64,000 nucleotides of DNA from Mesotoga infera (GTDB lineage Bacteria > Thermotogota > Thermotogae > Petrotogales > Kosmotogaceae): NCBI RefSeq assembly GCF_900157305.1, contig NZ_LS974202.1, positions 682,001 through 746,000 on the forward strand, in the 5' to 3' direction. The notes under the pieces are model-generated. The model worked only from the letters and a program-made list of their open reading frames with translations, was not told the DNA's origin and searched no databases. Below are positions 19,240 to 59,364 of the stretch, piece after piece (positions within the stretch are counted from its first letter, which is position 1; every line of letters starts with the position of its first letter). The position numbers and the translations under genes are program-made.

Positions 19240-20667
19240 ATGAACACGTGTTCTTACAGGGATCTTAGAGAAAAGGTCATAAACGGTGGATATTGCATAG
19301 GTTGTGGCGCTTGCGTTAGTCAATCAAATTCGGTGGGAAGTAACGTATTGAACGCCAGAGGAATGTATGAGCCCGATTTCGCGTCATCAGAAAGCGAGAT
19401 TAACAACGTCTGTCCTTTCTTCAGTGATCGCAGTGAGACAGAGATCGCGAAGACCATATTTGCAGCAACCAAGGGTATCAGAGAAAATGAATTTATCGGC
19501 TTCTATTTGTCCACTTACGCAGGTTATGTTGCTGAGGATTCCTTTAGAGAAGGAGGGAGTTCCGGCGGCTTTGGAACATGGGTACTTTCTAGGTTTCTGA
19601 GCGAGAATCTGGTTGACGGCGTAATCCATGTCAAACCTTCTTCTGGAAAGGGTGTTCTGTTTGAATACGGCATTTCGAATAGTATTGAAGACCTGAAGAA
19701 AGGAGCCAAGTCACGATATTACCCTGTTGAGTTCTCTGGAGTTCTCAGGGAAGTAAGAAAAAGTCAGAAGAAGTATGCTTTCGTTGGGGTTCCGTGCTTT
19801 GTGAAAGCAGCGCGTCTTCTTTGTGAGAATGATGATGAAATTGCAGACAGAATACTATTCTTTGTTGGTTTGGTTTGTGGCCATTTGAAATCGAAACGAT
19901 TTGCGGATATGCTAGCATGGCAAAAAGGTATAAAGCCTGATGAACTTCGCGCTATAGATTTCAGACAGAAATTTTCATCGGGTCCTGCCAGCAATTACGG
20001 TATAGAGATTAGAGGAGAAAAGGACAGAAAAGCCGAAATTTTGGCTGAAAGAGCGAGCAGCTTCTATGGATATAATTGGGGCTATGGTTTCTTCAAGCCC
20101 AGAGCATGCGATTTCTGTGATGATGTAGTGAGCGAAACAGCGGACGTTTCAATAGGTGATGCTTGGCTTCCTGAATATGTAGACGACAGCAAGGGCACAA
20201 ATGTTGTTGTAGTACGAAATCCGGTTATTCAAGAGCTAGTTGACTCCGGTATTAAGAGTGGAGCGCTCAGGCTCGATTCGATACCGCCAGAGAAGATAAT
20301 TGAATCACAAGAGGGAGGCTTCAGGCATAGAAGGGATCTTTTGGCTTATAGACTCGTTTTAGCTGAGGAACAAGGCGAGTGGTATCCAAGAAAGCGAGTA
20401 GAACCGAAGAAGGATGGTATTGATGAAAGATATAAGAAGATAACTGTTCTCAGAATGCAATTGGCAGAGAAATCGCATTCTGCATTCGAAAAGGCATTGA
20501 AAGCGGATGATTTCGAAGTATTCAAAACCGAGATGAAACCGCTACTTCTGGAATATGACAGACTATACAGAAAATCATTTGCTTCAAGAGTACTCTCAAA
20601 AGCGAAGCGTGTTTTGAAGAAACGAAAAATTAGAAAAATTAGGGACAGACTCCATTTTTTGGTATAA
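19240..20667 (+). CDS. FrhB-like coenzyme F420 hydrogenase/dehydrogenase beta-subunit family protein
   Basis: A 475-residue Fe-S flavoprotein-like protein often encoded beside pyruvyl transferases. CIGCGACVSQ is a ferredoxin-like cysteine motif at residues 18-27; GGSSGGFGTWVLS and VGVPCFVKAARLLC match the FrhB N- and C-domain core, and CDFCDDVVSETADVSIGDAW is the second cysteine cluster. A role in F420 chemistry is not implied; in these clusters such proteins are thought to act on sugars. The last codons run into a repeat half-site (tagggacagactccattttt), so the tail may have been altered by it. Confidence 0.78.
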   Translation: MNTCSYRDLREKVINGGYCIGCGACVSQSNSVGSNVLNARGMYEPDFASSESEINNVCPFFSDRSETEIAKTIFAATKGIRENEFIGFYLSTYAGYVAEDSFREGGSSGGFGTWVLSRFLSENLVDGVIHVKPSSGKGVLFEYGISNSIEDLKKGAKSRYYPVEFSGVLREVRKSQKKYAFVGVPCFVKAARLLCENDDEIADRILFFVGLVCGHLKSKRFADMLAWQKGIKPDELRAIDFRQKFSSGPASNYGIEIRGEKDRKAEILAERASSFYGYNWGYGFFKPRACDFCDDVVSETADVSIGDAWLPEYVDDSKGTNVVVVRNPVIQELVDSGIKSGALRLDSIPPEKIIESQEGGFRHRRDLLAYRLVLAEEQGEWYPRKRVEPKKDGIDERYKKITVLRMQLAEKSHSAFEKALKADDFEVFKTEMKPLLLEYDRLYRKSFASRVLSKAKRVLKKRKIRKIRDRLHFLV

Positions 20668-20850
20668 TCTGAGTTGAATTAGAGCGAGATCCCATATAAA
20701 ACCATTACGGGATGACGGGGACGGAGCCGATGCGAAAAACGGTGGCGAAAAACGGTACAGACGTTAGGGGAATCGTCAGTCCCTATTTTCGCCTCCGAGG
20801 AGCCCGTCGGTTCCTATTTTCGCTGTTTTCGTCAGTTTTTCGTTTGTGAG
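20640..20850. repeat. REP-like repeats flanking the RAYT gene
   Basis: Between the FrhB-like gene and the transposase are a half-site tagggacagactccattttt (from about 20640), an ATCCC..GGGAT hairpin, and from 20745 a variant of the larger hairpin found elsewhere: GCGAAAAACGG..CAGACG pairs with CGTCAGTCCC..TTTTCGC. A partial second arm follows (gtcggttcctattttcgc). No gene is present. Confidence 0.75.
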
Positions 20851-20858
20851 GTGATCGG

Positions 20859-21596
20859 ATGCCCAGGAGAGCAAGGGTTGTCTTTGAGGGTGTGGTTCAT
20901 CATATCACCCAGAGAGGCAATTACAGGCAGAATGTCTTTGAAGATGATTCCGATAAAAGGAAGTATGTCGAGTTCATAAGGGAGTATTCAGAGAAGTACG
21001 GAATGAAGATCTACGCTTATTGCCTTATGAGCAATCATGTTCACTTCATAGCCGCTCCCGTTAAGGAAGATTCGCTCGCGATGACTTTCAAATACGCTAA
21101 TATGAGGTATTCTAGCTACTTCAACAGGAAGAACAGGAGATCGGGTCATCTATGGCAGGGAAGGTTTTATTCATGCCCTTTGCATTTTGAACATGCCCTG
21201 GAGGCTTTGAGGTATGTTGAGAGGAATCCAGTGAGGGCTAGGATGGTAGAGCTTCCCTGGGAGTATGAATGGTCGAGCGCTAGGGAGCATGTGAGATTTA
21301 ATGCGGAGATAGAAACTGCCACTAAAGGCGAGGGAAATGATTTATCTTCTCAGACTTCAGTTACTTCTTATAGGAGCATTCAGCTTTGCTCGCTGAAGGA
21401 TCTGGATCTTAACTGGAATGTGGAAGGCTGGAGAGAGTATCTCGGTTTCCCCGATGAAGATGATTTTCTCATCAGAATCAGGGGAAATACGTTTTCTGGA
21501 AAGCCGTTGTTTGCCGAGGAACTTGTGGCCGGTCTTGAGAAGGAGCTCGGGGTTCCACTTAGCAGGAAGCCGAGGGGGAGACCGAGGAAGGAGTAG
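20859..21596 (+). CDS. REP-associated tyrosine transposase (RAYT, Y1_Tnp/IS200-like)
   Basis: A 245-residue HUH endonuclease-type transposase. HITQRGNYRQNVFED is the typical opening, MSNHVHF carries the His-x-His metal site, GHLWQGRFYSCPL and YVERNPVRARMV are signature stretches of RAYTs, and the last residues RKPRGRPRKE are basic. RAYTs nick single-stranded REP hairpins and are usually single-copy and immobile. GAGGTGAT precedes ATG 20859. The gene lies between hairpins of the family best represented as GAAAAACGGGGACAGACG..CGTCAGTCCCCATTTTC, which is the likely cognate REP. Confidence 0.9.
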   Translation: MPRRARVVFEGVVHHITQRGNYRQNVFEDDSDKRKYVEFIREYSEKYGMKIYAYCLMSNHVHFIAAPVKEDSLAMTFKYANMRYSSYFNRKNRRSGHLWQGRFYSCPLHFEHALEALRYVERNPVRARMVELPWEYEWSSAREHVRFNAEIETATKGEGNDLSSQTSVTSYRSIQLCSLKDLDLNWNVEGWREYLGFPDEDDFLIRIRGNTFSGKPLFAEELVAGLEKELGVPLSRKPRGRPRKE

Positions 21597-21840
21597 CTTT
21601 AGGAGCCGTCCATCGTCCGGCGTCCCGGAGCGTGAACCCGTCCTTGGAGAACCTGAGGCCAGAGGACAGAGGTGAGAGGTGTGAAGAACGGGACCTTGAT
21701 CTTCTTACCTCTGACCTCATTCCTCTTACCTCTGTTTAGAGACGAACGAGAAGAACGAGATCCCGTATAGAAGCATTACGGGATGACACGCAAGGTCTTT
21801 CCGTTTCTATTCGCCTGGTCGGTCTCTCGCTCTGTGTGTC
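21597..21840. repeat. Repeat stretch downstream of RAYT
   Basis: Directly after the stop comes the ccgtccatcgtccggcgtccc cassette seen six or more times in the window, then 'acctct/agaggt' words forming a long loose inverted repeat, and an ATCCCGTA..TACGGGAT hairpin near 21762-21787. No gene is supported. Confidence 0.75.
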
Positions 21841-22208: not shown

Positions 22209-22592
22209 ATGTTTGGCAATTTCAGGAATCTTGCGTTGTGGAAATCTTCGATGAATCTGACCACAGAAATCTATAAACTCACAAAACTCTTTCCCGATCA
22301 TGAGCGTTTCGGTCTTGTTTCGCAAATGCAGAGAGCTGCCGTTTCTATTCCTTCAAATATCGCTGAAGGCTTTGGAAGAGAGTCCACGAAAGATTTGATA
22401 AGGTTTCTTTACACTTCTAGAGGTTCTCTTATGGAGCTTTCCACACAGCTTGAAATCAGTATCAATCTGGGTTATATCTCGAGCGATTCCAGCAAGCCGA
22501 TTATTGATAATGCCAATGAAGTCAACAGGCTCCTGAATGGATTGATTTATTCTCTGAAATCTCAGCTAAAAAAATCTTCCAAATCTAAGTAA
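22209..22592 (+). CDS. Four-helix-bundle protein (S23 / 23S rRNA intervening-sequence family)
   Basis: A 127-residue protein with LALWKSSMNLTTEIYKLTKLFP, RFGLVSQMQRAAVSIPSNIAEG, RFLYTSRGSLMELSTQLEI and a basic tail: the standard features of the S23 family (pentameric four-helix bundles, originally found in rRNA intervening sequences). GGAGGT precedes ATG 22209. It runs against the neighbouring small genes and is bracketed by 'agaggt' and 'acctct' repeats, consistent with arrival by insertion. Confidence 0.85.
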   Translation: MFGNFRNLALWKSSMNLTTEIYKLTKLFPDHERFGLVSQMQRAAVSIPSNIAEGFGRESTKDLIRFLYTSRGSLMELSTQLEISINLGYISSDSSKPIIDNANEVNRLLNGLIYSLKSQLKKSSKSK

Positions 22593-27299: not shown

Positions 27300-27720
27300 T
27301 CCTTCAATAAAATAGGGACTCTATTATTTTCATTTCGGAAACGTTGTTCTACGTTCCAGTGTGCCAAGAAGGCGAAGAAGGGAACTTCAAGCCATGCTTA
27401 ATTGAAGATGAGGGAGGGCCCCTCGAAGCCGTCATGCAGGTGGAGGCTTCAAACCGCCGTAAGCTGCTGTGGTAAAGAGCCATGGTAGTGGAAAGACAAA
27501 ATAGGGACTCCATTTTCTCAAGAGCGGTTCCTCCTTCCTACGCTTCGCGTCCACGTTCTCTTTCCTAGAACCGGGTCTAGGGTCTGGAAAGGGCGAGATC
27601 CCGTGCAGTTGCATCACGGGATGACATAATGAGGGGGTTCGAAGGTATATAGGGACTCCATTTTTGCGAACAAGAGCAGTTCCTCGTTCCGACTCATTGC
27701 TTCCATGTTCTTGGTTCTTA
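27300..27720. repeat. REP half-sites and repeat cassettes
   Basis: No gene. The word aatagggact followed by c(c/t)att recurs near 27309, 27499 and 27651, matching the RAYT-flanking half-site. Cassettes of the tcctcgttccgac and gcgtccacg type and one ATCCCGT..ACGGGAT hairpin (near 27598) fill the rest. Confidence 0.7.
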
Positions 27721-27775
27721 CGCCGCGGAGAGGAACTGGTATTTACGATTGTGTAGGTAATTATGTAGGTCTTAT

Positions 27776-27794
27776 TGTACAATATGCTTGTACA
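27776..27794. promoter_or_regulatory. Operator palindrome of the Phd/PIN operon
   Basis: TGTACAA-TATGC-TTGTACA is a perfect 7-5-7 inverted repeat ending immediately before the AGGAGGT ribosome site (27795-27801). Phd/YefM antitoxins repress their own operons by binding such palindromes, so this is the likely autoregulatory site. Confidence 0.65.
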
Positions 27795-27806
27795 GGAGGT
27801 GGTTTT

Positions 27807-28088
27807 ATGAAGTACATAGCGACTCGAGACCTGAGAAGCAATCCCTCAGCGGTCTGGGAAACGCTTGATGAGGGATCGGAGGTTATCGTTACGGTTAACG
27901 GGAAGCCTAAAGCAATAATGATAAGGGCAGACGAGGATCTCGAGTTTCTCATAAAGGCTATTTCCCGAGCAAAAGCTGAACTCGCGGTCGAAAGAATGCG
28001 GCTCCAGTCTTTGAATAGCGGTCTTGATAGTCTTTCTTCAGAGGAAATTGAGAGAGAGATATCTGAAAGCAGAAAAGCTGACAGATGA
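27807..28088 (+). CDS. Phd/YefM-family antitoxin
   Basis: 93 residues. The N-terminal ATRDLRSNPSAVWETLDEGSEVIVTVNGKPKAI is the Phd/YefM DNA-binding fold. The C-terminal half is helical and charged (AKAELAVERMRLQ, SSEEIEREISESR), as expected for the segment that wraps the toxin. ATG 27807 lies five bases after AGGAGGT. The last codons overlap the toxin start by four bases (ATGA). Earlier in-frame starts would begin inside repeat DNA and are not used. Confidence 0.85.
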   Translation: MKYIATRDLRSNPSAVWETLDEGSEVIVTVNGKPKAIMIRADEDLEFLIKAISRAKAELAVERMRLQSLNSGLDSLSSEEIEREISESRKADR

Positions 28089-28489
28089 AGATAGTAGTAG
28101 ATACAAACGTCCTTGTCGCGGCTCTATTGAATCCTTACGGAAGTCCCGCAGGTGTTCTCAATTGTATTCTCTCAAATCGTGTTCTTCCCTGTTTCGATGC
28201 AAGAATCATCGATGTATACGAGAGGGTTCTTCGAAGACCGAGATTTGGATTCAGGAGCGATGATATAAGGGGGCTTCTGGATTTCTTTGTCAGGGTCGGC
28301 TTTCTTGTGGCTCCCGAACCTGTCTCTTTGGAGCTTCCAGATCTATCGGATTTACCTTTTGTTGAAGTCTCTAGAGCCACTAACAGTCCGATCGTTACGG
28401 GGAATCCTAAACACTTTCCCGCTGATTTCGTAACTGTCCTGAGTCCTGCAGCGTTGCTTGAGATAATTCACAGAAGGGCGGGTAAATAG
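28085..28489 (+). CDS. PIN-domain toxin
   Basis: 134 residues. VVDTNVLVAALL at the N-terminus supplies the first catalytic Asp, CFDARIIDVYERVLRRPRF the conserved Glu region, and TNSPIVTGNPKHFP the usual late motif, where the second acidic residue often reads TGD(x)KHF; here it is TGNPKHF. It belongs to the PIN family of RNases paired with Phd/AbrB-type antitoxins. The start overlaps the antitoxin stop. Confidence 0.85.
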   Translation: MKIVVDTNVLVAALLNPYGSPAGVLNCILSNRVLPCFDARIIDVYERVLRRPRFGFRSDDIRGLLDFFVRVGFLVAPEPVSLELPDLSDLPFVEVSRATNSPIVTGNPKHFPADFVTVLSPAALLEIIHRRAGK

Positions 28490-29212
28490 GGACCACGGTA
28501 AATAGCGATAAATAGGGACCTTATCATATAAAGGGTAAATAGGTAAGGTAAATAGGGACAGACTCCGTTTTCTCCGGCTCATTGCGCCCAGGTTTTTCGT
28601 TCCAGAGCTAGGAGCTTTGTTCTTGGTGGAGAACGATGCGCGGAAGAGCGGGAAGAGCCGGAACGAGAAGAGGAGAGAGGGCGAGACACGAGCAGCGGGT
28701 CTCGGGTTTCGGGTCTAGGGTCTAGAACGCGAAAAACGCGGTTTTTCGCGGTCTTTGCTCCTTTTCGTCATGCCGGACCTGATCCGGCATCTCCGCTCCT
28801 TCGAAAGAGTAAGAGCGAGATCCCGTATAGGAGCACTACGGGATGACATGAGGGGGAGCGTTTCAGGGCAGGCTCTCCTTTAACGTCATCCTGACGTGCT
28901 CCCAGTCAGGATCCCGGTCTTCCTCCCTCACGTCATGCCCGGTCTTCGCGAAAAACGGGGACAGACGTCAGGAGCCCGTCAGTCCCCATTTTCGCGGTCC
29001 TTCCTCCTTCCCGTCATGCCGGACTCACTTGAAGTCATTCTGAGCTTGACTCAGAATCACGGTTTTCTAAGGAGTGGATCCCGGGTCGGAGCCCGGGATG
29101 ACAGGATAGAGGCGTTCTGGATGCTTAATGTCGAGGAACTGCTCCCAATGCTCTCACGAAGGACGGGTCCATGATCTTGGACGAACAACGAAGGACGTCT
29201 CTTCTAGGCGAG
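28490..29212. repeat. Repeat island after the PIN toxin
   Basis: No gene. It begins with four or five copies of aaatagggac (28497-28560), then cassettes, the tctagaccctagac / GCGAAAAA hairpin cassette in reverse orientation (28680-28760), an ATGCCGGA..TCCGGCAT hairpin, ATCCCGTA and ATCCTGAC hairpins, a full RAYT-type hairpin at about 28947-28996, and ATTCTGAG and ATCCCGGG hairpins (29035-29102). Confidence 0.85.
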
Positions 29213-36159: not shown

Positions 36160-36198
36160 TATAATTGTAAGATCCAATATAGGTCGGTGGTGAATGAA

Positions 36199-37320
36199 AT
36201 GGACAGATACGATGAGCGCGACACGATATTTGCCCGGATGAACTACGAAGTCGACTCACCGGAGTATTGTGACTACTACTCCAGGCATCCCGAGTTGAAA
36301 GAGGTCGATGATGAACTGCGCAGCAAACCGGATCTGTGCGACGCAAGCTCCCCCTCTTATGATCCGATTGAAGCTTCAGAAATCCGTTCGAATTTCTCCC
36401 TTATAGAAGACCTTCGGCCTCTATGCGAGGGCAAACCATCATCCGGCAAACTCCATGTTGAACCATCGGACATTACGGATCAAATTAAACTTATGGCCCT
36501 CGATTATGGGGCAGATCTCGTAGGTGTTGCAAGGATGAAACCGGAATTTTATTATAGCCACAGGGGCAGGCATCGAGAGCACTACGGAGATGAAATAGGC
36601 GATCTGCTTCCATACGGAATCGTTTTCGCGGTTGAGATAAAGAAAGAAATGATCGACACCGCGCCAGCGATGACGGCAATGGTCGAGAGTTCCAGAACCT
36701 ATCTGAAGGCTGCAACGATAGGACTGAGTCTATCCTATTTCATTCGCAGTCTGGGATACTCGGCCAGAAACCATATGGACGGCAATTATCTCTCAGTTCT
36801 CCCCCTGGTGGCGTCAGCCGCAGGAATTGGAGTCTTCGGGAGACACGGCCTTCTCATCTCTGACAGGTTCGGCCCGAGAATAAAACTCGGACTGGTAACC
36901 ACGGATATGCCTTTGACCGGCAGCCGATCAGTAAATGTCGACCTTGAAAGATTCTGCAGCAATTGCGGGGCTTGCTCCAGAGAGTGCCCTGCCTCTGCAA
37001 TATCAGGTAATGGACAGGAGATCGTCAACGGCACCAGTAGATGGAGAATCGATCATGAGCTCTGTTACTCGTATTGGAGATCGAACGGAACCGACTGTGG
37101 TATCTGCATGAAGGTTTGTCCTTTTTCGAGAGGGATCGGCTTTTCCCAATTCATAAATAATAGGGACAAAATAATAGGGACAGACTCCGTTTTCCTAAGA
37201 GTGGTTTCTCGTTCCGACGCTTCGCAGAAAGAACCGTCCTCCGAGAAGAGCGGGAGAGCCGTCCAGCGTCGGAGCGTGGACCCGTCCTTGGGAAGAGCGA
37301 AACCAGAGGTGAGAGGGTAA
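36199..37320 (+). CDS. Reductive dehalogenase-like Fe-S protein, C-terminus overwritten by a repeat
   Basis: About 373 residues. DYGADLVGVARMKPEFYY, SRTYLKAATIGLSLSYFIRSLGY, VASAAGIGVFGRHGLLIS and FGPRIKLGLVTTDMP follow the plan of RdhA/QueG-like cobamide-dependent proteins. The two clusters FCSNCGACSRECPASAI and CGICMKVCPFSRG would bind 4Fe-4S centres. There is no Tat signal, so it is cytoplasmic. From about 37155 the frame is encoded by the repeat aatagggacagactccgttt and its cassettes, so the true end is lost. ATG 36199 is preferred to GTG 36187/36190. The substrate is unknown; queuosine reduction is unlikely because of the long N-terminus. Confidence 0.65.
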   Translation: MDRYDERDTIFARMNYEVDSPEYCDYYSRHPELKEVDDELRSKPDLCDASSPSYDPIEASEIRSNFSLIEDLRPLCEGKPSSGKLHVEPSDITDQIKLMALDYGADLVGVARMKPEFYYSHRGRHREHYGDEIGDLLPYGIVFAVEIKKEMIDTAPAMTAMVESSRTYLKAATIGLSLSYFIRSLGYSARNHMDGNYLSVLPLVASAAGIGVFGRHGLLISDRFGPRIKLGLVTTDMPLTGSRSVNVDLERFCSNCGACSRECPASAISGNGQEIVNGTSRWRIDHELCYSYWRSNGTDCGICMKVCPFSRGIGFSQFINNRDKIIGTDSVFLRVVSRSDASQKEPSSEKSGRAVQRRSVDPSLGRAKPEVRG

Positions 37321-38312
37321 AGGTATGAGGCGAGAAGAGCGGGATTTTGATCTTCTTACCTCTTACCTCTCCTCCTCTTACCTCTGTTTAGAGACGAACG
37401 AGAAGAGCGAGATCCCGTATAGGAGCACTACGGGATGACACGAGTGGGGCATTACGGGTCTTCGGAAAAACGGGGACAGACGTCAGGAGCCCATCAGTCC
37501 CCATTTTCGCGTTCTTTCCTTTCTTCCCGTCATTCTGAGCTTGACTCAGAATCACGTTCTTCCTCCCCTCACGTCATCCTGACGTGCTCCTAGTAAGGAT
37601 CCCGGTCTTCGGAAAAACGGGGACAGACGTCAGGAGCCCGTCAGTCCCCATTTTCGGGGTCGGAGCCCGGGATGACAGTCCCTTCCCGTCATGCCGGACT
37701 CACTTGACGTCATTCTGAGCTTGACTCAGAATCACGTTCTTCCTCCCCTCACGTCATCCTGACGTGCTCCTAGTAAGGATCCCGGTCTTCGCGAAAAACG
37801 GGGACAGACGTCAGGAGCCCGTCAGTCCCCATTTTCGCGGTATTTGATCCCTTCCCGTCATGCCGGACCCCGATCCGGCATCTCCGCTCCTTCGAAAGAG
37901 CAAGAGCGAGATCCCGTATAGGAGCACTACGGGATGACACGGAATGACAGCCCCTTCCCGTCATGCCGGACCCGATCCGGCATCCTGGTCCTTCGAAAGA
38001 GTGAGAAGAGCGAGAAGAGCGGTTCCAAGAGCGGTTCCGGCGCGTTGCGCCCAGGTTCTTGGTTAAAGACTCGAGATGAGGAGAGAGGAAGAGACTGGGG
38101 AGAGATTTCTCATCCGCTCGTGAGCGGAGCGAACTCTCGACGATGCTCTTTCTCGGCTCTTACCGACAACCCACAACGCACAACCCACCACGGTTCTTCG
38201 TTCCAGAGCTAGGAGTTTTGTTGTTCGTTCCGACGCTGCGCGTCCAAGTTCTTGGCAAAAACTCGAGGCCTGAGGTCAGAGGCGAGAGGTATGAAGAGCG
38301 CGATCTTGATCT
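37155..38312. repeat. Large hairpin repeat island
   Basis: No gene. It holds three RAYT-type hairpins (about 37462-37511, 37611-37655, 37789-37838), several ATTCTGAG..CTCAGAAT and ATGCCGGA..TCCGGCAT hairpins, ATCCCGTA and ATCCTGAC units, the ggcgcgttgcgcccaggttc cassette (near 38039 and in altered form near 38235), and 'acctct' runs at 37360-37386. Confidence 0.85.
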
Positions 38313-40309: not shown

Positions 40310-41564
40310 GGTTGCCATGGAAAAACAGGGACTCCACATTTTCTCAAGAGCGGTTTCTCCGGGTTCCTCCGGCGCGTTGCGCCCAGGTTCTTGGTTAAAG
40401 ACTCGAGATGAGGAGAGAGGACGAGACACGAGCAGCGGGTCTCGGGTTTCGGGTCTAGGGTCTAGAACGCGAAAAACGCGGTTTTTCACGGTCTTTGCTC
40501 CTTTTCGTCATGCCGGACCTGATCCGGCATCCCTGTCCTTAGAGAGAGCGAAACCAGAGGTGAGAGGGTAGAGGTATGAGGCGAGAAGAGCGGGATTTTG
40601 ATCTTCTTACCTCTTACCTCATTCCTCTTACCTCTGTTTAGAGACGAACGAGAAGAGCGAGATCCCGTATAGGAGCACTACGGGATGACAGGATGGGGGC
40701 GTTGCCGAATGACAGTCCCTTGCCGTCATGCCGGACTCACTTGACGTCATTCTGAGCTTGACTCAGAATCACGTTCTTCCTCCCCTCACGTCATCCTGAC
40801 GTGCTCCAAGTCAGGATCCCGGTCTTTGCGAAAAACGGGACAGACGTTAGGAGCCCGTCAGTCCCCATTTTCGCGGTCTTTCCTCCCTTCCCGTCATGCC
40901 GGACTCACTTGACGTCATTCTGAGCTTGACTCAGAATCACGGTTTTCTAAGGAGTGGATCCCGGGTCGGAGCCCGGGATGACAGTCCTCTCACGTCATCC
41001 TGGCGTGCTCCAAGTCAGGATCCCGGTCTTTGCGAAAAACGGGACAGACGTTAAGAGCCCGTCAGTCCCCATTTTCGCGGTATTTGATCCCTTCCCGTCA
41101 TGCCGGACCCCGATACGGCATCTCCGCTCCTTCGAAAGAGCAAGAGCGAGATCCCGTATAGGAGCACTACGGGATGACACGGGATGACGGTCCTTCTTCC
41201 TTCCCGTCATTCTGAGCTTGACTCAGAATCACGGTTTTCTAAGGAGTGGATCCCGGGTCGGAGCCCGGGATGACAGTCCCTCCCCGTCATGCCGGACCTG
41301 ATCCGGCATCCCTGTCCTTAGAGAGAGCGAAACCAGAGGTGAGAGGGTAGAGGTATGAGGCGAGAAGAGCGGGATTTTGATCTTCTTACCTCTTACCTCT
41401 CCTCCTCTTACCTCTGTTTAGAGACGTACGAGAAGAGCGAGATCCCGTATAAAAGCACTACGGGATGACACGGGATGATGGTCCTTCTTCCTTCCCGTCA
41501 TTCTGAGCTTGACTCAGAATCCCGCTCTTTCCTCCCTTCGGGTCATCCTGACATGCTCCTAGAA
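40310..41564. repeat. Large hairpin repeat island
   Basis: No gene. The order of units closely resembles 37155-38100: the tctagaccctagac cassette with GCGAAAAA hairpin (40425-40495), 'acctct' blocks (40600-40635 and 41385-41415), ATCCCGTA hairpins, RAYT-type hairpins (about 40827-40875 and 41031-41080), repeated ATTCTGAG, ATGCCGGA and ATCCCGGG hairpins. It runs to within a few bases of the MscS stop codon. Confidence 0.85.
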
Positions 41565-50854: not shown

Positions 50855-51775
50855 AAGAGCGTCGAGAGTTCTCCTCGCTCTTTCGAAAGAGCGGAGATGC
50901 CGGATCAAGTCCGGCATGACAGGAAGGAGGGAAGGACGCGAAAATGGGGACTGACGGGCTCCTGACGTCTGTCCCGTTTTTCGCGAAGACGGAGATCCTG
51001 ACTAGGAGCACGTCAGGATGACCCGAAGGGACTGTCATCCCGTAATGCCCCACTCGTGTCATCCCGTAATGCTCCTATACGGGATCTCGCTCTTTAGTGC
51101 CCCCATCCTGCCATCCCGTAATAGCCTGTCCTGAAGAGCCTGCCCTGAAATGCTCCTATTCAGGGTCATCCCGTAATGCTCCTATACGGGATCTCGCTCT
51201 TGCTCTTTCGAAGGAGCGGAGATGCCGGATCAAGTCCGGCATGACAGGAAGGAGGGAAGGACGCGAAAATGGGGACTGACGGGCTCCTGACGTCTGTCCC
51301 GTTTTTCGCGAAGACGGAGATCCTGACTAGGAGCACGTCAGGATGACCCGAAGGGACTGTCATCCCGGGCTCCGACCCGGGATCCACTCCATAGAAAACC
51401 GTGATTCTGAGTCAAGCTCAGAATGACGGGAAGGGAGTAAGACTGTCATCCCGTAGTGCACCAATCCCGTCATCCCGTAATGCTCCTATACGGGATCTCG
51501 CTCCTTACGGTTGAAAGAGCAGATTCTGAGTCAAGCTCAGAATGACATCAAGTGAGTCCGGCATGACGGGAAGGAGCAAAGACCGCGAAAAACCGCGTTT
51601 TTCGCGTTCTAGACCCTAGACCCGAAACCCGAGACCCGCTGCTCGTGTCTCGTCCTCTCTCCTCCTCTCGAATCTTTTACCAATAACCTGGGCGCAACGC
51701 GCCGGAACCGCTCTTCTCGGAGGACGGTTCTTTCTGCACAGCATCGGAACGAGGAACTGCTCTTGATAAAACGGA
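50855..51775. repeat. Large hairpin repeat island (reverse orientation)
   Basis: No gene. Two near-identical runs (50886-51030 and 51215-51345) contain an ATGCCGGA hairpin, a RAYT-type hairpin (about 50938-50988 and 51262-51312) and an ATCCTGAC hairpin. ATCCCGTA, ATCCCGGG and ATTCTGAG hairpins and the tctagaccctagac cassette (51580-51655) follow. The unit order is the reverse of the islands at 37 and 41 kb. Confidence 0.85.
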
Positions 51776-53241: not shown

Positions 53242-54032
53242 TCATGGATCGAGTATCGGATACTTCGACAGGGGATGATAGTACGATGTCATATCGAATA
53301 AGTTTATCTCTTCAAAGAACCTGTTGGGAATGGCGTAATTGACTGCTTTTGTGTGAGAAGAGCGCCATTTGTTCATTCTCAAATTGACTTTCTCTTCCCA
53401 TCCAGCCCTTCTAAGGACTCTGTTCAGTTTCTTTGTGCTCTTCCACTGGTGTAGTATGATGGCTCTAAGCCTTCTCCTTATCCAGCTCAAAAGCCCTCTC
53501 AAGGTAGATTGTAAGTCTACTATCCTGAAATAGCTGGCAAATCCTCTCAACAGTGGATTTAGCTCTTTCACTATTTCCTTTACCGGTGTGCTCTGGTTCC
53601 TTCTTGTAAGTCCCTTGACCTTTCCCTTGAACCTTTTCAATCTGGATTTCTCTATCCCAACTCTCTCGCCTTTTATTTCGAAGCCAAGAAAGTGAAAGCC
53701 CTCCTCCAGTGTTGTGATTCTCGTCTTGTTTCTGTTGACCTTGAGCTTCATGTCAATCTCCAGTATGTTGATCGCGATTGCCAGAAACTCTCGGGCTTCT
53801 TCCTGGGTTTTCGAGAAGATTAATATGTCGTCTGCATATCTGACTATCCTTATTCCTCTGGCTTTCATCTTCTGGTCGAACTCGTCCAGGTAGATGTTCG
53901 CCAGCAGGGGACTTATTACACTACCCTGTGGACTGCCAGTTTCTGTTGCCTTCCAGACTCCATCTTCCATTACTCCGCTCTTCAGCATTGCGCGTATGAG
54001 TTTGAGTATCTTTCCATCACTCACTCTCTCTG
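53242..54032 (-). pseudogene. Group II intron reverse transcriptase/maturase, C-terminal part (intron A)
   Basis: About 262 codons. TGSPQGSVISPLLANIYL and RIVRYADDILIF are reverse-transcriptase motifs with the catalytic YADD. FHFLGFEIKGER and the region around VKGLTRRNQSTPVKEIV are the end of RT and start of the maturase domain. There is no endonuclease domain after GWEEKVNLRMNKWRSS. The N-terminal part is absent from copy A. It cannot make an active enzyme. Confidence 0.88.
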
Positions 54033-54143
54033 TGTCGACATCAACAGTAAAATAAGAAAAACGCCGGTAGAAAATGTGAAAAAGCATCGGGAGAAATTGT
54101 GGACTAACATTTGAATATTCTCAGGCAAAAAGGGGGTATTCAG

Positions 54144-55235
54144 ATGTTGGGAGAGAAGCAGGTCATTGAAATAAGAATACTTAGCAAGAGGGGAATTACA
54201 AACAGAGAGATAGCCAGAGAAATGGGCTGCCATGAAAACACAGTCAGCAAGTATTTGAAGGAGGATTGGAAGAAGATGAAGGGTATTTCAAAACTGGATC
54301 CTTACAAAGAGCACATAATCAAAAGGCTAGAAGAGTATCCGTCAATAAAAGCCACAGTGTTGTTCAAAGAGATAAAGGCTCAAGGTTACACCGGAGGAAT
54401 GACGATAGTTCGGATGTATGTGCACTCCATACGTCCGGAGGATGAAATTGAGAGCACAAGATTTGAGACAGCTCCGGGCAGGCAATTCCAGGCCGATTGG
54501 GGAGAGGGTGAGACCAGGATAGGTGGAAAGTCGGTGGTGATAAAGTTCTTCACCATGGTCCTAGGATACTCGCGAATGTTGTATGTCCAGATAGTCAATG
54601 ACGAGAAGCTTGAGACACTTCTTCAAGCTCATAACAAGGCATTCGAATACTTCGGAGGTTATCCACATGAAGGGCTGTACGACAACATGAAAGCCGTGGT
54701 CAAGTCTCTTGAGAGGAAGAAAGAATACAATGCCAAGTTCACAGATTTCGCAGACTTCTATGGCTTCAGGATAATAACTCATCGTCCATACAACCCGAAG
54801 GCCAAAGGGAAGGTTGAGAGGATGGTTCCGTATGTGAGAAACAACATACTGTATGCTCAAAGCTACTCAAGCCTCTCTGAATTAGAGAACACTCTTCTCG
54901 ATTGGTTGGTCATTGCCAACCAGAGATTACATTCTTATCTAAAAGAAACCCCTCTCGAGAGGTTCGAGAGGGAAAAGGAACATCTGAATAAACTAACTAG
55001 ATTCTATCCCTTGAGGAGATTAAACACAAGGCTGGTAAGAGAGTCCGGACAGGTCATTTACAAAGAAAGAGCTTACAGGGTACCTGAGAAATACACCGGC
55101 AAGAAAGTCAACCTGCAAACGGAAGGTCAGATGCTGAAGATTTATTGTGAAGATGATCTGATCAACAGCCAGCCACTCAAAGACCAGGTTGAAGTAAGGT
55201 CCTTGAAGGAATACCAGAAACTGGTGGGGGCATGA
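54144..55235 (+). CDS. istA: IS21-family transposase IstA (copy 1)
   Basis: 363 residues. N-terminal HTH (ILSKRGITNREIAREMGCHENTVSKYL), then the DDE core: FQADWGEGE, EGLYDNMKAVV and PKAKGKVERMVPYV supply Asp, Asp and Glu. ATG 54144 with GGGGGT upstream is chosen over TTG 54111. The stop lies one base before istB. It cuts and joins the IS ends. Confidence 0.93.
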   Translation: MLGEKQVIEIRILSKRGITNREIAREMGCHENTVSKYLKEDWKKMKGISKLDPYKEHIIKRLEEYPSIKATVLFKEIKAQGYTGGMTIVRMYVHSIRPEDEIESTRFETAPGRQFQADWGEGETRIGGKSVVIKFFTMVLGYSRMLYVQIVNDEKLETLLQAHNKAFEYFGGYPHEGLYDNMKAVVKSLERKKEYNAKFTDFADFYGFRIITHRPYNPKAKGKVERMVPYVRNNILYAQSYSSLSELENTLLDWLVIANQRLHSYLKETPLERFEREKEHLNKLTRFYPLRRLNTRLVRESGQVIYKERAYRVPEKYTGKKVNLQTEGQMLKIYCEDDLINSQPLKDQVEVRSLKEYQKLVGA

Positions 55236-55236
55236 A

Positions 55237-56013
55237 ATGGCATACGAAAAAGTGAGAGAGTTAATGGAATCGCTCAAGCTTACCGGAATGATGAACTCGC
55301 TGGATTTCTCTCTACACAATTGGGGCAAAGGAGAGAAAGATGTAACCGAGCTCTTGGAAGAATTACTGCTGGCTGAAGTAAAGGAGAAGAGTGAAAGAAG
55401 ATATCTCACAGCTCTCAAATACAGTGGACTTCCATTTCACAAAACACTCGAAGAATTCGACTTCTCCTTTCAGCCTTCAATAGACAGGAAACAGATAATG
55501 GAACTGAAGAGCTTGAGATTCCTGTACGAAAAAGAGAATGTCGTTCTGCTTGGACCTCCCGGGGTTGGAAAAACACATCTGGCAGTAGCCCTGGGAATGG
55601 AAGCGCTCAGAGAAGGGAAGAAAGTTTACTTTGTGAATGCAATATCGCTTGTGGACAAACTGAAGAAGGCCTTTTCTGAAAGACGGTTTGAAAAGACGAT
55701 AGGTTACTTCAAATCGATTGAGCTACTCATTGTAGACGAGTTGGGGTATCTCCCACTTGAAAATGAAGGTGCAAAGCTCTTCTTTGAACTGGTGAGTGAG
55801 AAATACGAAAAGGGAAGCATAATTCTTACTTCAAACAGAGGCTTTGCAGAATGGAACAGAATCTTTGAAGACGAGATACTCGCAACAGCCGTTCTTGACA
55901 GACTATTGCATCACTGTACCATTGTCAACATACGAGGAAAGAGTTACAGGCTTAGAGAGAAACAGAAAACCGGTCTTATTGGTACACAATTGATTAGTTC
56001 GCCTGGTCATTGA
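55237..56013 (+). CDS. istB: IS21-family helper ATPase IstB (copy 1)
   Basis: 258 residues, DnaC-like AAA+ ATPase. Walker A LLGPPGVGKTHLAVALG, Walker B LLIVDELGYLPL, sensor LTSNRGFAEW. It selects target DNA and activates IstA. It starts at ATG 55237 directly after istA. The protein is identical to copy 2. Confidence 0.93.
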   Translation: MAYEKVRELMESLKLTGMMNSLDFSLHNWGKGEKDVTELLEELLLAEVKEKSERRYLTALKYSGLPFHKTLEEFDFSFQPSIDRKQIMELKSLRFLYEKENVVLLGPPGVGKTHLAVALGMEALREGKKVYFVNAISLVDKLKKAFSERRFEKTIGYFKSIELLIVDELGYLPLENEGAKLFFELVSEKYEKGSIILTSNRGFAEWNRIFEDEILATAVLDRLLHHCTIVNIRGKSYRLREKQKTGLIGTQLISSPGH

Positions 56014-56328
56014 TTTCACAAAAATCGTTGATGTTTTTCCACATTTCCGATCGATGTTTTTTCACATTTCCGATTGATGTTGACAACACCACTTTCATCC
56101 GAATCCTGCCATCCGAACCTTTACAGCTGGAGTCAGGGCTTTCCCTTATCTCGCAGGGTTACCCTCTGTAACGGCCATCTCTGGTTCACTTTCGTTCAGT
56201 TCCGGACTTTGCCTCGGGCTTCCTTCAGATTCACCGTTACCAGTGACACCCTTGCCTCTGGCTAATGCTTCTTTGACTCCCCACATTCGGGTCTTTCACC
56301 CTATAGTTGTGTACCATGCCGGGCGCAC

Positions 56329-56524
56329 GAGATTCTGAGTCAAGCTTAGAATGATGGGAAGGAAGAAGGACCGTCATCCCGTAATGATCCTATACGGGAT
56401 CTCGCTCAGAAGAGCCGTCCTTCGTTGTTCGTCCCAGATCATGGACCCGTCCTTCGTGCAGTTCCTCGTTCCGACGCTGCGAGTCCAGGCTCCTCGTTCC
56501 TGGTTCAAGACAGAGGAAAGAGCG
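56329..56524. repeat. Repeat-derived spacer between the two introns
   Basis: 196 bases made of the ATTCTGAG hairpin that forms the 5' exon of intron A, an ATCCCGTA..TACGGGAT hairpin, and the gtccttcgttgttcgtcc and cctcgttccgacgctgcg cassettes. It ends in gacagaggaaagagcg, the 3' exon side of intron B. No gene. Confidence 0.8.
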
Positions 56525-56592
56525 ATCGAGTAGGAGAGGGGCGGAGCCCCTCGTCCTCTCACAGAACCGTGCGTACGGGCCTCGTACACGGC

Positions 56593-57383
56593 TCATGGAT
56601 CGAGTATCGGATACTTCGACAGGGGATGATAGTACGATGTCATATCGAATAAGTTCATCTCTTCAAAGAACCTGTTGGGAATGGCGTAATTGACTGCTTT
56701 TGTGTGAGAAGAGCGCCATTTGTTCATTCTCAAATTGACTTTCTCTTCCCATCCAGCCCTTCTAAGGACTCTGTTCAGTTTCTTTGTGCTCTTCCACTGG
56801 TGTAGTATGATGGCTCTAAGCCTTCTCCTTATCCAGCTCAAAAGCCCTCTCAAGGTAGATTGTAAGTCTACTATCCTGAAATAGCTGGCAAATCCTCTCA
56901 ACAGTGGATTTAGCTCTTTCACTATTTCCTTTACCGGTGTGCTCTGGTTCCTTCTTGTAAGTCCCTTGACCTTTCCCTTGAACCTTTTCAATCTGGATTT
57001 CTCTATCCCAACTCTCTCGCCTTTTATTTCGAAGCCAAGAAAGTGAAAGCCCTCCTCCAGTGTTGTGATTCTCGTCTTGTTTCTGTTGACCTTGAGCTTC
57101 ATGTCAATCTCCAGTATGTTGATCGCGATTGCCAGAAACTCTCGGGCTTCTTCCTGGGTTTTCGAGAAGATTAATATGTCGTCTGCATATCTGACTATCC
57201 TTATTCCTCTGGCTTTCATCTTCTGGTCGAACTCGTCCAGGTAGATGTTCGCCAGCAGGGGACTTATTACACTACCCTGTGGACTGCCAGTTTCTGTTGC
57301 CTTCCAGACTCCATCTTCCATTACTCCGCTCTTCAGCATTGCGCGTATGAGTTTGAGTATCTTTCCATCACTCACTCTCTCTG
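56593..57383 (-). pseudogene. Group II intron reverse transcriptase, C-terminal part (intron B)
   Basis: Same as the part in intron A except for one residue (FFEEM here, FFEEI there). It continues in frame from the N-terminal part at 59437-59976 once the IS and one CTCTG are removed, giving ..DSVAE|RVSDGKIL... The total would be 441 residues. Confidence 0.88.
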
Positions 57384-57494
57384 TGTCGACATCAACAGTA
57401 AAATAAGAAAAACGCCGGTAGAAAATGTGAAAAAGCATCGGGAGAAATTGTGGACTAACATTTGAATATTCTCAGGCAAAAAGGGGGTATTCAG

Positions 57495-58586
57495 ATGTTG
57501 GGAGAGAAGCAGGTCATTGAAATAAGAATACTTAGCAAGAGGGGAATTACAAACAGAGAGATAGCCAGAGAAATGGGCTGCCATGAAAACACAGTCAGCA
57601 AGTATTTGAAGGAGGATTGGAAGAAGATGAAGGGTATTTCAAAACTGGATCCTTACAAAGAGCACATAATCAAAAGGCTAGAAGAGTATCCGTCAATAAA
57701 AGCCACAGTGTTGTTCAAAGAGATAAAGGCTCAAGGTTACACCGGAGGAATGACGATAGTTCGGATGTATGTGCACTCCATACGTCCGGAGGATGAAATT
57801 GAGAGCACAAGATTTGAGACAGCTCCGGGCAGGCAATTCCAGGCCGATTGGGGAGAGGGTGAGACCAGGATAGGTGGAAAGTCGGTGGTGATAAAGTTCT
57901 TCACCATGGTCCTAGGATACTCGCGAATGTTGTATGTCCAGATAGTCAATGACGAGAAGCTTGAGACACTTCTTCAAGCTCACAACAAGGCATTCGAATA
58001 CTTCGGAGGTTATCCACATGAAGGGCTGTACGACAACATGAAAGCCGTGGTCAAGTCTCTTGAGAGGAAGAAAGAATACAATGCCAAGTTCACAGATTTC
58101 GCAGACTTCTATGGCTTCAGGATAATAACTCATCGTCCATACAACCCGAAGGCCAAAGGGAAGGTTGAGAGGATGGTTCCGTATGTGAGAAACAACATAC
58201 TGTATGCTCAAAGCTACTCAAGCCTCTCTGAATTAGAGAACACTCTTCTCGATTGGTTGGTCATTGCCAACCAGAGATTACATTCTTATCTAAAAGAAAC
58301 CCCTCTCGAGAGGTTCGAGAGGGAAAAGGAACATCTGAATAAACTAACTAGATTCTATCCCTTGAGGAGATTAAACACAAGGCTGGTAAGAGAGTCCGGA
58401 CAGGTCATTTACAAAGAAAGAGCTTACAGGGTACCTGAGAAATACACCGGCAAGAAAGTCAACCTGCAAACGGAAGGTCAGATGCTGAAGATTTATTGTG
58501 AAGATGATCTGATCAACAGCCAGCCACTCAAAGACCAGGTTGAAGTAAGGTCCTTGAAGGAATACCAGAAACTGGTGGGGGCATGA
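57495..58586 (+). CDS. istA: IS21-family transposase IstA (copy 2)
   Basis: 363 residues, identical in protein sequence to copy 1: HTH, DWGEGE, GLYDNMKAVV and KGKVERMVPY of the DDE core. One silent difference was noticed (cataac in copy 1, cacaac here). Start ATG 57495 with GGGGGT upstream. Confidence 0.93.
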   Translation: MLGEKQVIEIRILSKRGITNREIAREMGCHENTVSKYLKEDWKKMKGISKLDPYKEHIIKRLEEYPSIKATVLFKEIKAQGYTGGMTIVRMYVHSIRPEDEIESTRFETAPGRQFQADWGEGETRIGGKSVVIKFFTMVLGYSRMLYVQIVNDEKLETLLQAHNKAFEYFGGYPHEGLYDNMKAVVKSLERKKEYNAKFTDFADFYGFRIITHRPYNPKAKGKVERMVPYVRNNILYAQSYSSLSELENTLLDWLVIANQRLHSYLKETPLERFEREKEHLNKLTRFYPLRRLNTRLVRESGQVIYKERAYRVPEKYTGKKVNLQTEGQMLKIYCEDDLINSQPLKDQVEVRSLKEYQKLVGA

Positions 58587-58587
58587 A

Positions 58588-59364
58588 ATGGCATACGAAA
58601 AAGTGAGAGAGTTAATGGAATCGCTCAAGCTTACCGGAATGATGAACTCGCTGGATTTCTCTCTACACAATTGGGGCAAAGGAGAGAAAGATGTAACCGA
58701 GCTCTTGGAAGAATTACTGCTGGCTGAAGTAAAGGAGAAGAGTGAAAGAAGATATCTCACAGCTCTCAAATACAGTGGACTTCCATTTCACAAAACACTC
58801 GAAGAATTCGACTTCTCCTTTCAGCCTTCAATAGACAGGAAACAGATAATGGAACTGAAGAGCTTGAGATTCCTGTACGAAAAAGAGAATGTCGTTCTGC
58901 TTGGACCTCCCGGGGTTGGAAAAACACATCTGGCAGTAGCCCTGGGAATGGAAGCGCTCAGAGAAGGGAAGAAAGTTTACTTTGTGAATGCAATATCGCT
59001 TGTGGACAAACTGAAGAAGGCCTTTTCTGAAAGACGGTTTGAAAAGACGATAGGTTACTTCAAATCGATTGAGCTACTCATTGTAGACGAGTTGGGGTAT
59101 CTCCCACTTGAAAATGAAGGTGCAAAGCTCTTCTTTGAACTGGTGAGTGAGAAATACGAAAAGGGAAGCATAATTCTTACTTCAAACAGAGGCTTTGCAG
59201 AATGGAACAGAATCTTTGAAGACGAGATACTCGCAACAGCCGTTCTTGACAGACTATTGCATCACTGTACCATTGTCAACATACGAGGAAAGAGTTACAG
59301 GCTTAGAGAGAAACAGAAAACCGGTCTTATTGGTACACAATTGATTAGTTCGCCTGGTCATTGA
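58588..59364 (+). CDS. istB: IS21-family helper ATPase IstB (copy 2)
   Basis: 258 residues with GPPGVGKTHLAVALG (Walker A) and LLIVDELGYLP (Walker B). It starts one base after the istA stop. About 70 bases separate its stop from the right IS end, which carries two ccgat(c/t)gatgtt words. Confidence 0.93.
   Translation: MAYEKVRELMESLKLTGMMNSLDFSLHNWGKGEKDVTELLEELLLAEVKEKSERRYLTALKYSGLPFHKTLEEFDFSFQPSIDRKQIMELKSLRFLYEKENVVLLGPPGVGKTHLAVALGMEALREGKKVYFVNAISLVDKLKKAFSERRFEKTIGYFKSIELLIVDELGYLPLENEGAKLFFELVSEKYEKGSIILTSNRGFAEWNRIFEDEILATAVLDRLLHHCTIVNIRGKSYRLREKQKTGLIGTQLISSPGH

Follow-up and report, generated by a model that had tools for sequence, protein, structure and literature searches.

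The window analysed here is a stretch of 64,000 bases (G000:C1:682001-746000) of the genome of Mesotoga infera (G000), which is a single contig of 2,965,660 bases. It contains a RAYT gene with repeats on either side, and the features of this neighbourhood are:

20635-20668, plus strand: short left-end palindrome ATTAGGGACAGACTCCATTTTTTG, with TATAAT at 20663-20668 (from the sequence; pattern match at G000:702638)
20681-20716, plus strand: CGTC-type REP between the palindrome at the probable promoter and the RAYT (direct repeat D1, 89% identical to 21752-21787)
20742-20794, plus strand: hairpin copy upstream of the RAYT (model R1, 65.0 bits, E 4.6e-16)
20859-21596, plus strand: RAYT, a TIRYT-type Y1 HUH transposase gene of 245 aa (PF01797, NF047646, fold 4er8, alignments)
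21752-21787, plus strand: CGTC-type REP downstream of the RAYT (direct repeat D1)

The open reading frame that the initial annotation had called a RAYT proved genuine. Its 245-aa product carries an IS200-like HUH domain with one catalytic tyrosine (Y1_Tnp, PF01797, 57.7 bits against a cut-off of 23 in a profile search), the HVH motif is formed by residues 60-62, and His60, His62 and Tyr84 are invariant across 30 aligned sequences, namely the RAYT and 29 homologues. The NF047646 profile (REP_Tyr_transpos) scored 69.6 bits, below its equivalog cut-off of 80, a score of at least 80 bits being reached by no genome of the family in the profile search. A phmmer search against PDB sequences returned no match, and the predicted structure (mean pLDDT 86.7) was therefore used for fold comparison, with 4er8, the E. 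coli RAYT in complex with a REP hairpin, as the top solved-structure match (E 8e-9). The RAYT is single-copy, a second PF01797 match at 628325 being a separate IS200-like gene, and some relatives have two RAYT-like genes. The C-terminal part is conserved and helical, ends in RGRP and had no Pfam HTH match. Among the Mesotoga orthologues (L034-L041), a fast-changing spacer separates the core from this part, and the proteins are 245 to 338 aa long. Near two of the RAYTs, C-terminal fragments (L034 265-357 and L035 2926-3018) resemble relics of old copies.

Upstream of the gene, the palindrome at 20635-20661 overlaps the TATAAT, an arrangement also seen in G003, in G006 and in related Kosmotogaceae genomes. 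Together they form a probable RAYT promoter that is overlapped by an end signal, and since the two overlap, the RAYT protein may regulate its own expression. The hairpin at 20742-20794 is nested in a second, degenerate outer hairpin (arms at about 20732-20743 and 20797-20823) and, reading GGTACAGAC...GGGGAAT...GTCAGTCCC, represents a divergent subtype that differs from the common dispersed sequence; the dispersed consensus of this genome is not notably near the hairpin at its own RAYT. The gene had been described as flanked by hairpin variants, which is correct for the upstream side but not for the downstream side, where neither a GGGACAG/GTCAGTCCC motif nor a hairpin was found. Flanking on both sides is instead provided by the CGTC REPs, which flanked none of the tyrosine transposase genes examined by Di Nocera et al. 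(2013; PMC3733652) and which here also carry the hairpin; their presence on both sides may be due to chance in a REP-rich zone. Further along, 22209-22592 encodes a 23S rRNA-intervening-sequence family protein.

The ends of the gene were then compared across 66 RAYT homologues from many phyla (42-49% identity), taking 250 bp on each side. GGGACAG was present upstream in 56 of 66 loci as opposed to 0 of 66 control stretches, and downstream in 52 of 66 as opposed to 4 of 66. In the listed loci it usually takes the form of a palindrome such as AAAATAGGGACAGCGACCATTTT, mostly ~65-70 bp before the start codon, and a copy in the opposite orientation lies downstream. Of 79 distant RAYT loci, 7 (L188, L195 and L218, for example) have inverted GGGAC[AT]G pairs spaced 10-60 nt apart. 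A comparison with the repeats next to RAYT orthologues, which had been proposed as a check, placed a hairpin or part of one close upstream of the orthologues in G003, G005, G006 (L037) and G007, while the second-clade orthologues L040 and L041 (336-338 aa) had no adjoining hairpin.

Judged by these ends, the RAYT belongs to a GGGACAG-ended clade and fits the TIRYT/TIRtron class, in which a RAYT-like Y1 gene has GGGGWSAS-type inverted ends on both sides and in which families of TIR repeats occur singly, as dimers or in clusters and are dispersed in some genomes (Di Nocera et al., 2013; PMC3733652). The likeness covers the Y1 gene, the type of ends and the dispersal of TIR repeats. In two respects the M. 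infera system differs: inverted repeats on both sides of the gene are the rule family-wide, yet its RAYT has kept the upstream end only, and its dispersed form is a long imperfect hairpin with a covarying loop-closing pair that is mostly fused to CGTC REPs. The TIRYT/TIRtron class has been placed mostly in TnpA-REP subclass 2.1, which has an extra C-terminal domain resembling an HTH (Quentin et al., 2018; PMC6006769). This is probably also the subclass of the RAYT studied here, although its C-terminal part matched no HTH profile.

A covariance model (R1) built from 21 diverse hairpin copies recovered nine strong copies in the window, all with E <= 3e-15 for the window: the one upstream of the RAYT and eight dispersed ones. 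The latter, and two copies of the short end palindrome, are:

28946-28997, plus strand: dispersed hairpin (R1, 68.0 bits)
37461-37512, plus strand: dispersed hairpin (R1, 62.2 bits)
37608-37659, plus strand: dispersed hairpin in a CGTC-REP composite (R1, 64.1 bits)
37789-37840, plus strand: dispersed hairpin in a CGTC-REP composite (R1, 68.0 bits)
40825-40876, plus strand: dispersed hairpin in a CGTC-REP composite (R1, 73.4 bits)
41029-41080, plus strand: dispersed hairpin in a CGTC-REP composite (R1, 71.5 bits)
50936-50987, minus strand: dispersed hairpin in a CGTC-REP composite (R1, 74.3 bits)
51261-51312, minus strand: dispersed hairpin in a CGTC-REP composite (R1, 74.3 bits)
28551-28571, plus strand: short end-palindrome copy AATAGGGACAGACTCCGTTTT (pattern match at G000:710551)
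37173-37193, plus strand: short end-palindrome copy inside the 3' end of ORF 36187-37320 (pattern match at G000:719173)

All eight further copies that the initial annotation had listed were thus recovered, and they do lie between genes in both orientations, being intergenic with respect to large ORFs, six on the plus and two on the minus strand. Small arrays of the half-end AAATAGGGAC also occur at gene 3' ends (28486-28571 and 37156-37193), the second within the frame of ORF 36187-37320. A shorter hairpin, CGCGAAAAACGCGGTTTTTCGCG, lies at 28726, 40466 and, on the minus strand, at 51608, 60585, 60918 and 1761; it has the same arms as the main hairpin and no GGGACAG core, and is preceded by a GGGTCTAGGGTCTAGAA module and followed by the same REP linker.

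The genome-wide count that had been suggested as a check found the 32-base hairpin core (up to 3 mismatches) in 39 places, compared with 0 for a reversed-pattern control. There are 48 distinct copies among the fetched M. infera loci and ~50 in the genome, and the TIR family is in this sense dispersed. The distribution, for which chromosome-wide statements rest on model matches and twenty 20-kb samples, is uneven: 30 of 37 clusters fall within G000:C1 0.6-1.53 Mb, which is 31% of the genome, and none of 5000 uniform placements reached that concentration. CGTC REPs occupy the same zone in the 20-kb samples, and in G002, 19 of 21 listed hairpin copies lie within 131 kb (G002:C1 1.157-1.288 Mb). 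A strand bias along the chromosome was considered and dropped, as a by-eye count of listed positions gave ~20 copies on the plus and 23 on the minus strand within 0.6-1.53 Mb; dnaA lies at ~0.7 kb, and GC skew calculated from the 20-kb samples was not clean.

Each dispersed hairpin is about 50 bp long and has the form CGCGAAAAAYGGG(G)ACAGAC-N-loop-N'-GTCAGTCCCYATTTTCGC, which can be read as an end motif followed, across a short loop, by its inverted counterpart, and hence as a REPIN-like doublet. Single-strand DNA folding of four copies gave z-scores of -3.7 to -5.8. While the arms are fixed by the method used for finding copies, the loop-closing base pair (N and N') is free, and it was complementary in 111 of 115 copies (GC 73, AT 26, CG 12), whereas 5000 shuffles averaged 55 and reached 73 at most. 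Since shuffling ignores the relatedness of copies, more weight is given to switches on identical loops, where TCAGGAGCC is closed by GC or CG and TGAGGAGAAT by GC or AT. This pair indicates that the stem is under selection. An inverted pair of RAYT-associated motifs that forms a hairpin with compensatory changes, as well as tandem arrays that include flanks, nested elements and a RAYT nearby, resemble the REPIN/RAYT systems of Pseudomonas (Bertels and Rainey, 2011; PMC3116915); unlike those REPINs, the Mesotoga hairpin has a GGGACAG core instead of the GTAG tag, and no conserved GTAG was seen in the aligned copies or their flanks. The earlier reading of a RAYT with cognate REPs thus stands for the type of gene, but the repeats are TIR-type (GGGACAG) doublets and not classic GTAG REPs.

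An intergenic, stable stem under selection would also suit an element that acts at the RNA level as a transcription terminator or mRNA stabiliser, with the likeness to RAYT ends being incidental. Such roles have been proposed for REPs in general (PMC3733652), yet I consider this improbable here, as there is no T-run after the stem, the copies sit in repeat islands at no fixed position relative to genes, and the core motif is common to RAYT ends.

The least expected feature of the system is the fusion of the hairpins to CGTC REPs. Of the 48 fetched M. infera copies, 34 follow the tail of a CGTC REP and 7 more follow a truncated one (GTCATGC..CGGTC), making 41 in total, and in 39 of 48 a GGTCTTTCCTCC-like linker comes next. 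Linkers without a hairpin also occur (GGATCCCGGTCTTTCCTCCC, L133), which marks the hairpin as a discrete insertion at such places, and comparison with these linkers puts CGGTCTT on both of its sides. The initial annotation had the hairpins joined to other hairpins; composites in islands do exist, but the partners are largely CGTC-type REPs, which had already been described in M. prima and K. olearia (PMC3733652). These GTCAT...GGATC palindromes, alike to the CGTC REPs of that study, make up the bulk of the M. infera islands.

This context raises the possibility that the hairpins are passengers of CGTC-REP arrays, multiplied by recombination or array amplification after entry into the linker and not by the RAYT. 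The high proportion of copies behind full or truncated REP tails, the spacing of tandem composites at ~150-330 bp and the shared chromosomal zone are all in line with it. Against it, other Mesotoga genomes keep the same hairpin boundaries (CGCGAAAA...TTTTCGC) amid varied left and right neighbours, including GA-rich tracts and unrelated modules; in G002 and G007 the neighbours are different ones that occur in combination, and the boundary lies at the arms of the hairpin; and a CGTC REP was scored beside 0 of 13 copies in G006 and 0 of 4 in G003. As a full explanation I therefore regard it as tentative and somewhat doubtful, while local amplification is likely as a second process in M. infera, where the composite of REP and hairpin is probably carried along as the REP spreads. 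In my reading, the doublets linked to the RAYT are old and came to sit in REP arrays, and the composites were amplified later in the M. infera lineage.

CGTC REPs are reported to have no transposase of their own. That the GGGACAG-type RAYT mobilises the hairpin/CGTC-REP composites, and would thereby be the missing enzyme that spreads these REPs, is unlikely.

The flanking CGGTCTT resembles a target duplication and counts against an origin by RAYT activity, as Y1 enzymes make no target duplication; it may stem from a single ancestral event in M. infera. Together with the terminal CGCGAAAA/TTTTCGCG arms, this direct repeat would suit a MITE that has short inverted ends and is moved by an ordinary DDE transposase. 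Such an origin is very improbable, however: copies with other flanks in G002, G004, G006 and G007 show no evident direct repeat, the GGGACAG core is common to RAYT ends across phyla, and the compensatory changes in the loop-closing pair agree with recognition of a folded strand.

Strand-wise matches to the model, in which each palindrome may score on both strands and repeats are undercounted in fragmented assemblies, numbered 85 in M. infera, 74 in G007, 60 in G002, 28 in G006, 21 in G004, 14 in G005, 9 in G003, 4 in G009, and 1 each in G001 and G008. They were confined to Mesotoga and to G011 and G013, both of which have RAYTs of the GGGACAG clade; five other genomes of the family gave no model matches, and genera g2 and g5 were without both RAYT and hairpin. 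The proposal that hairpins should be missing from relatives that lack the RAYT did not hold. G001 has no RAYT and no more than one hairpin, but the complete genome G002 (60 matches) and G004 (21) carry hairpins without a detectable RAYT orthologue, which rules out strict dependence. Placing the RAYT within its own repeat family is hence justified by the end signal in common with the dispersed hairpins, but not as a strict link. The second RAYT-like clade (G002, G005, G007) was rejected as a source of the hairpins, since neither GGGACAGAC nor GTCAGTCCC occurs where these genes lie.

In G002, four stretches that contain hairpins could be aligned with the RAYT-bearing G007 over 469-654 bp, and a G004 locus has 414 bp in common with an M. 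infera locus, starting at the right edge of the hairpin. These copies look inherited, which makes RAYT loss the simpler reading and suggests that G002 and G004 lost the gene after inheriting the hairpins, rather than that the two are independent. For one G006 copy, an empty-site comparison between species gave no clean empty site, the flanks matching relatives piecewise and not across the site.

I assign a probability of about 0.72 to the reading that a RAYT of the TIRYT kind recognises GGGACAG palindromic ends, with the dispersed hairpins being doublets of this end signal that it probably copied in trans. Its basis is the RAYT gene and the fold predicted for it, the motif common to gene ends and hairpins, the number of copies, a stem under selection, the setting of the hairpins in composites and the hairpin loci found in more than one species. 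From these I infer a putative role of the RAYT in binding, cleaving and mobilising the hairpins. Under this mechanism, a single-copy HUH/Y1 endonuclease would recognise GGGACAG-bearing palindromic ends, and the hairpin, an inverted doublet of that signal, would be the analogue of a REPIN. Copying around the genome would probably have proceeded via single-stranded intermediates; most M. infera copies, which lie in a CGTC-REP linker, seem to have spread as REP-hairpin-REP composites, and the same end signal at the promoter may let the protein regulate itself.

This kind of partnership between a transposase and its repeats is already known; the Mesotoga case is new, with an unusual fusion of most hairpins to CGTC REPs. 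The comparative evidence, namely the motif test in 66 homologues, the covarying stem and the persistence of hairpin loci in species that lack the gene, widens the TIRYT/TIR-repeat partnership to include Thermotogota. The system also offers a tractable case for asking if RAYT repeats outlive the loss of their transposase, and if CGTC REPs travel with RAYT hairpins.

Elsewhere in the window, 27705-28489 holds a Phd/PIN toxin-antitoxin-like pair, and 53242-59364 is a tandem duplication with a period of ~3351 bases that contains an IS21-like pair and a 281-aa ORF. The pair consists of a 374-aa integrase-core gene and a 258-aa gene matching DnaA-type AAA, and to judge by DnaA-type matches at 817, 1237 and 2113 kb, the 258-aa gene may have additional copies.
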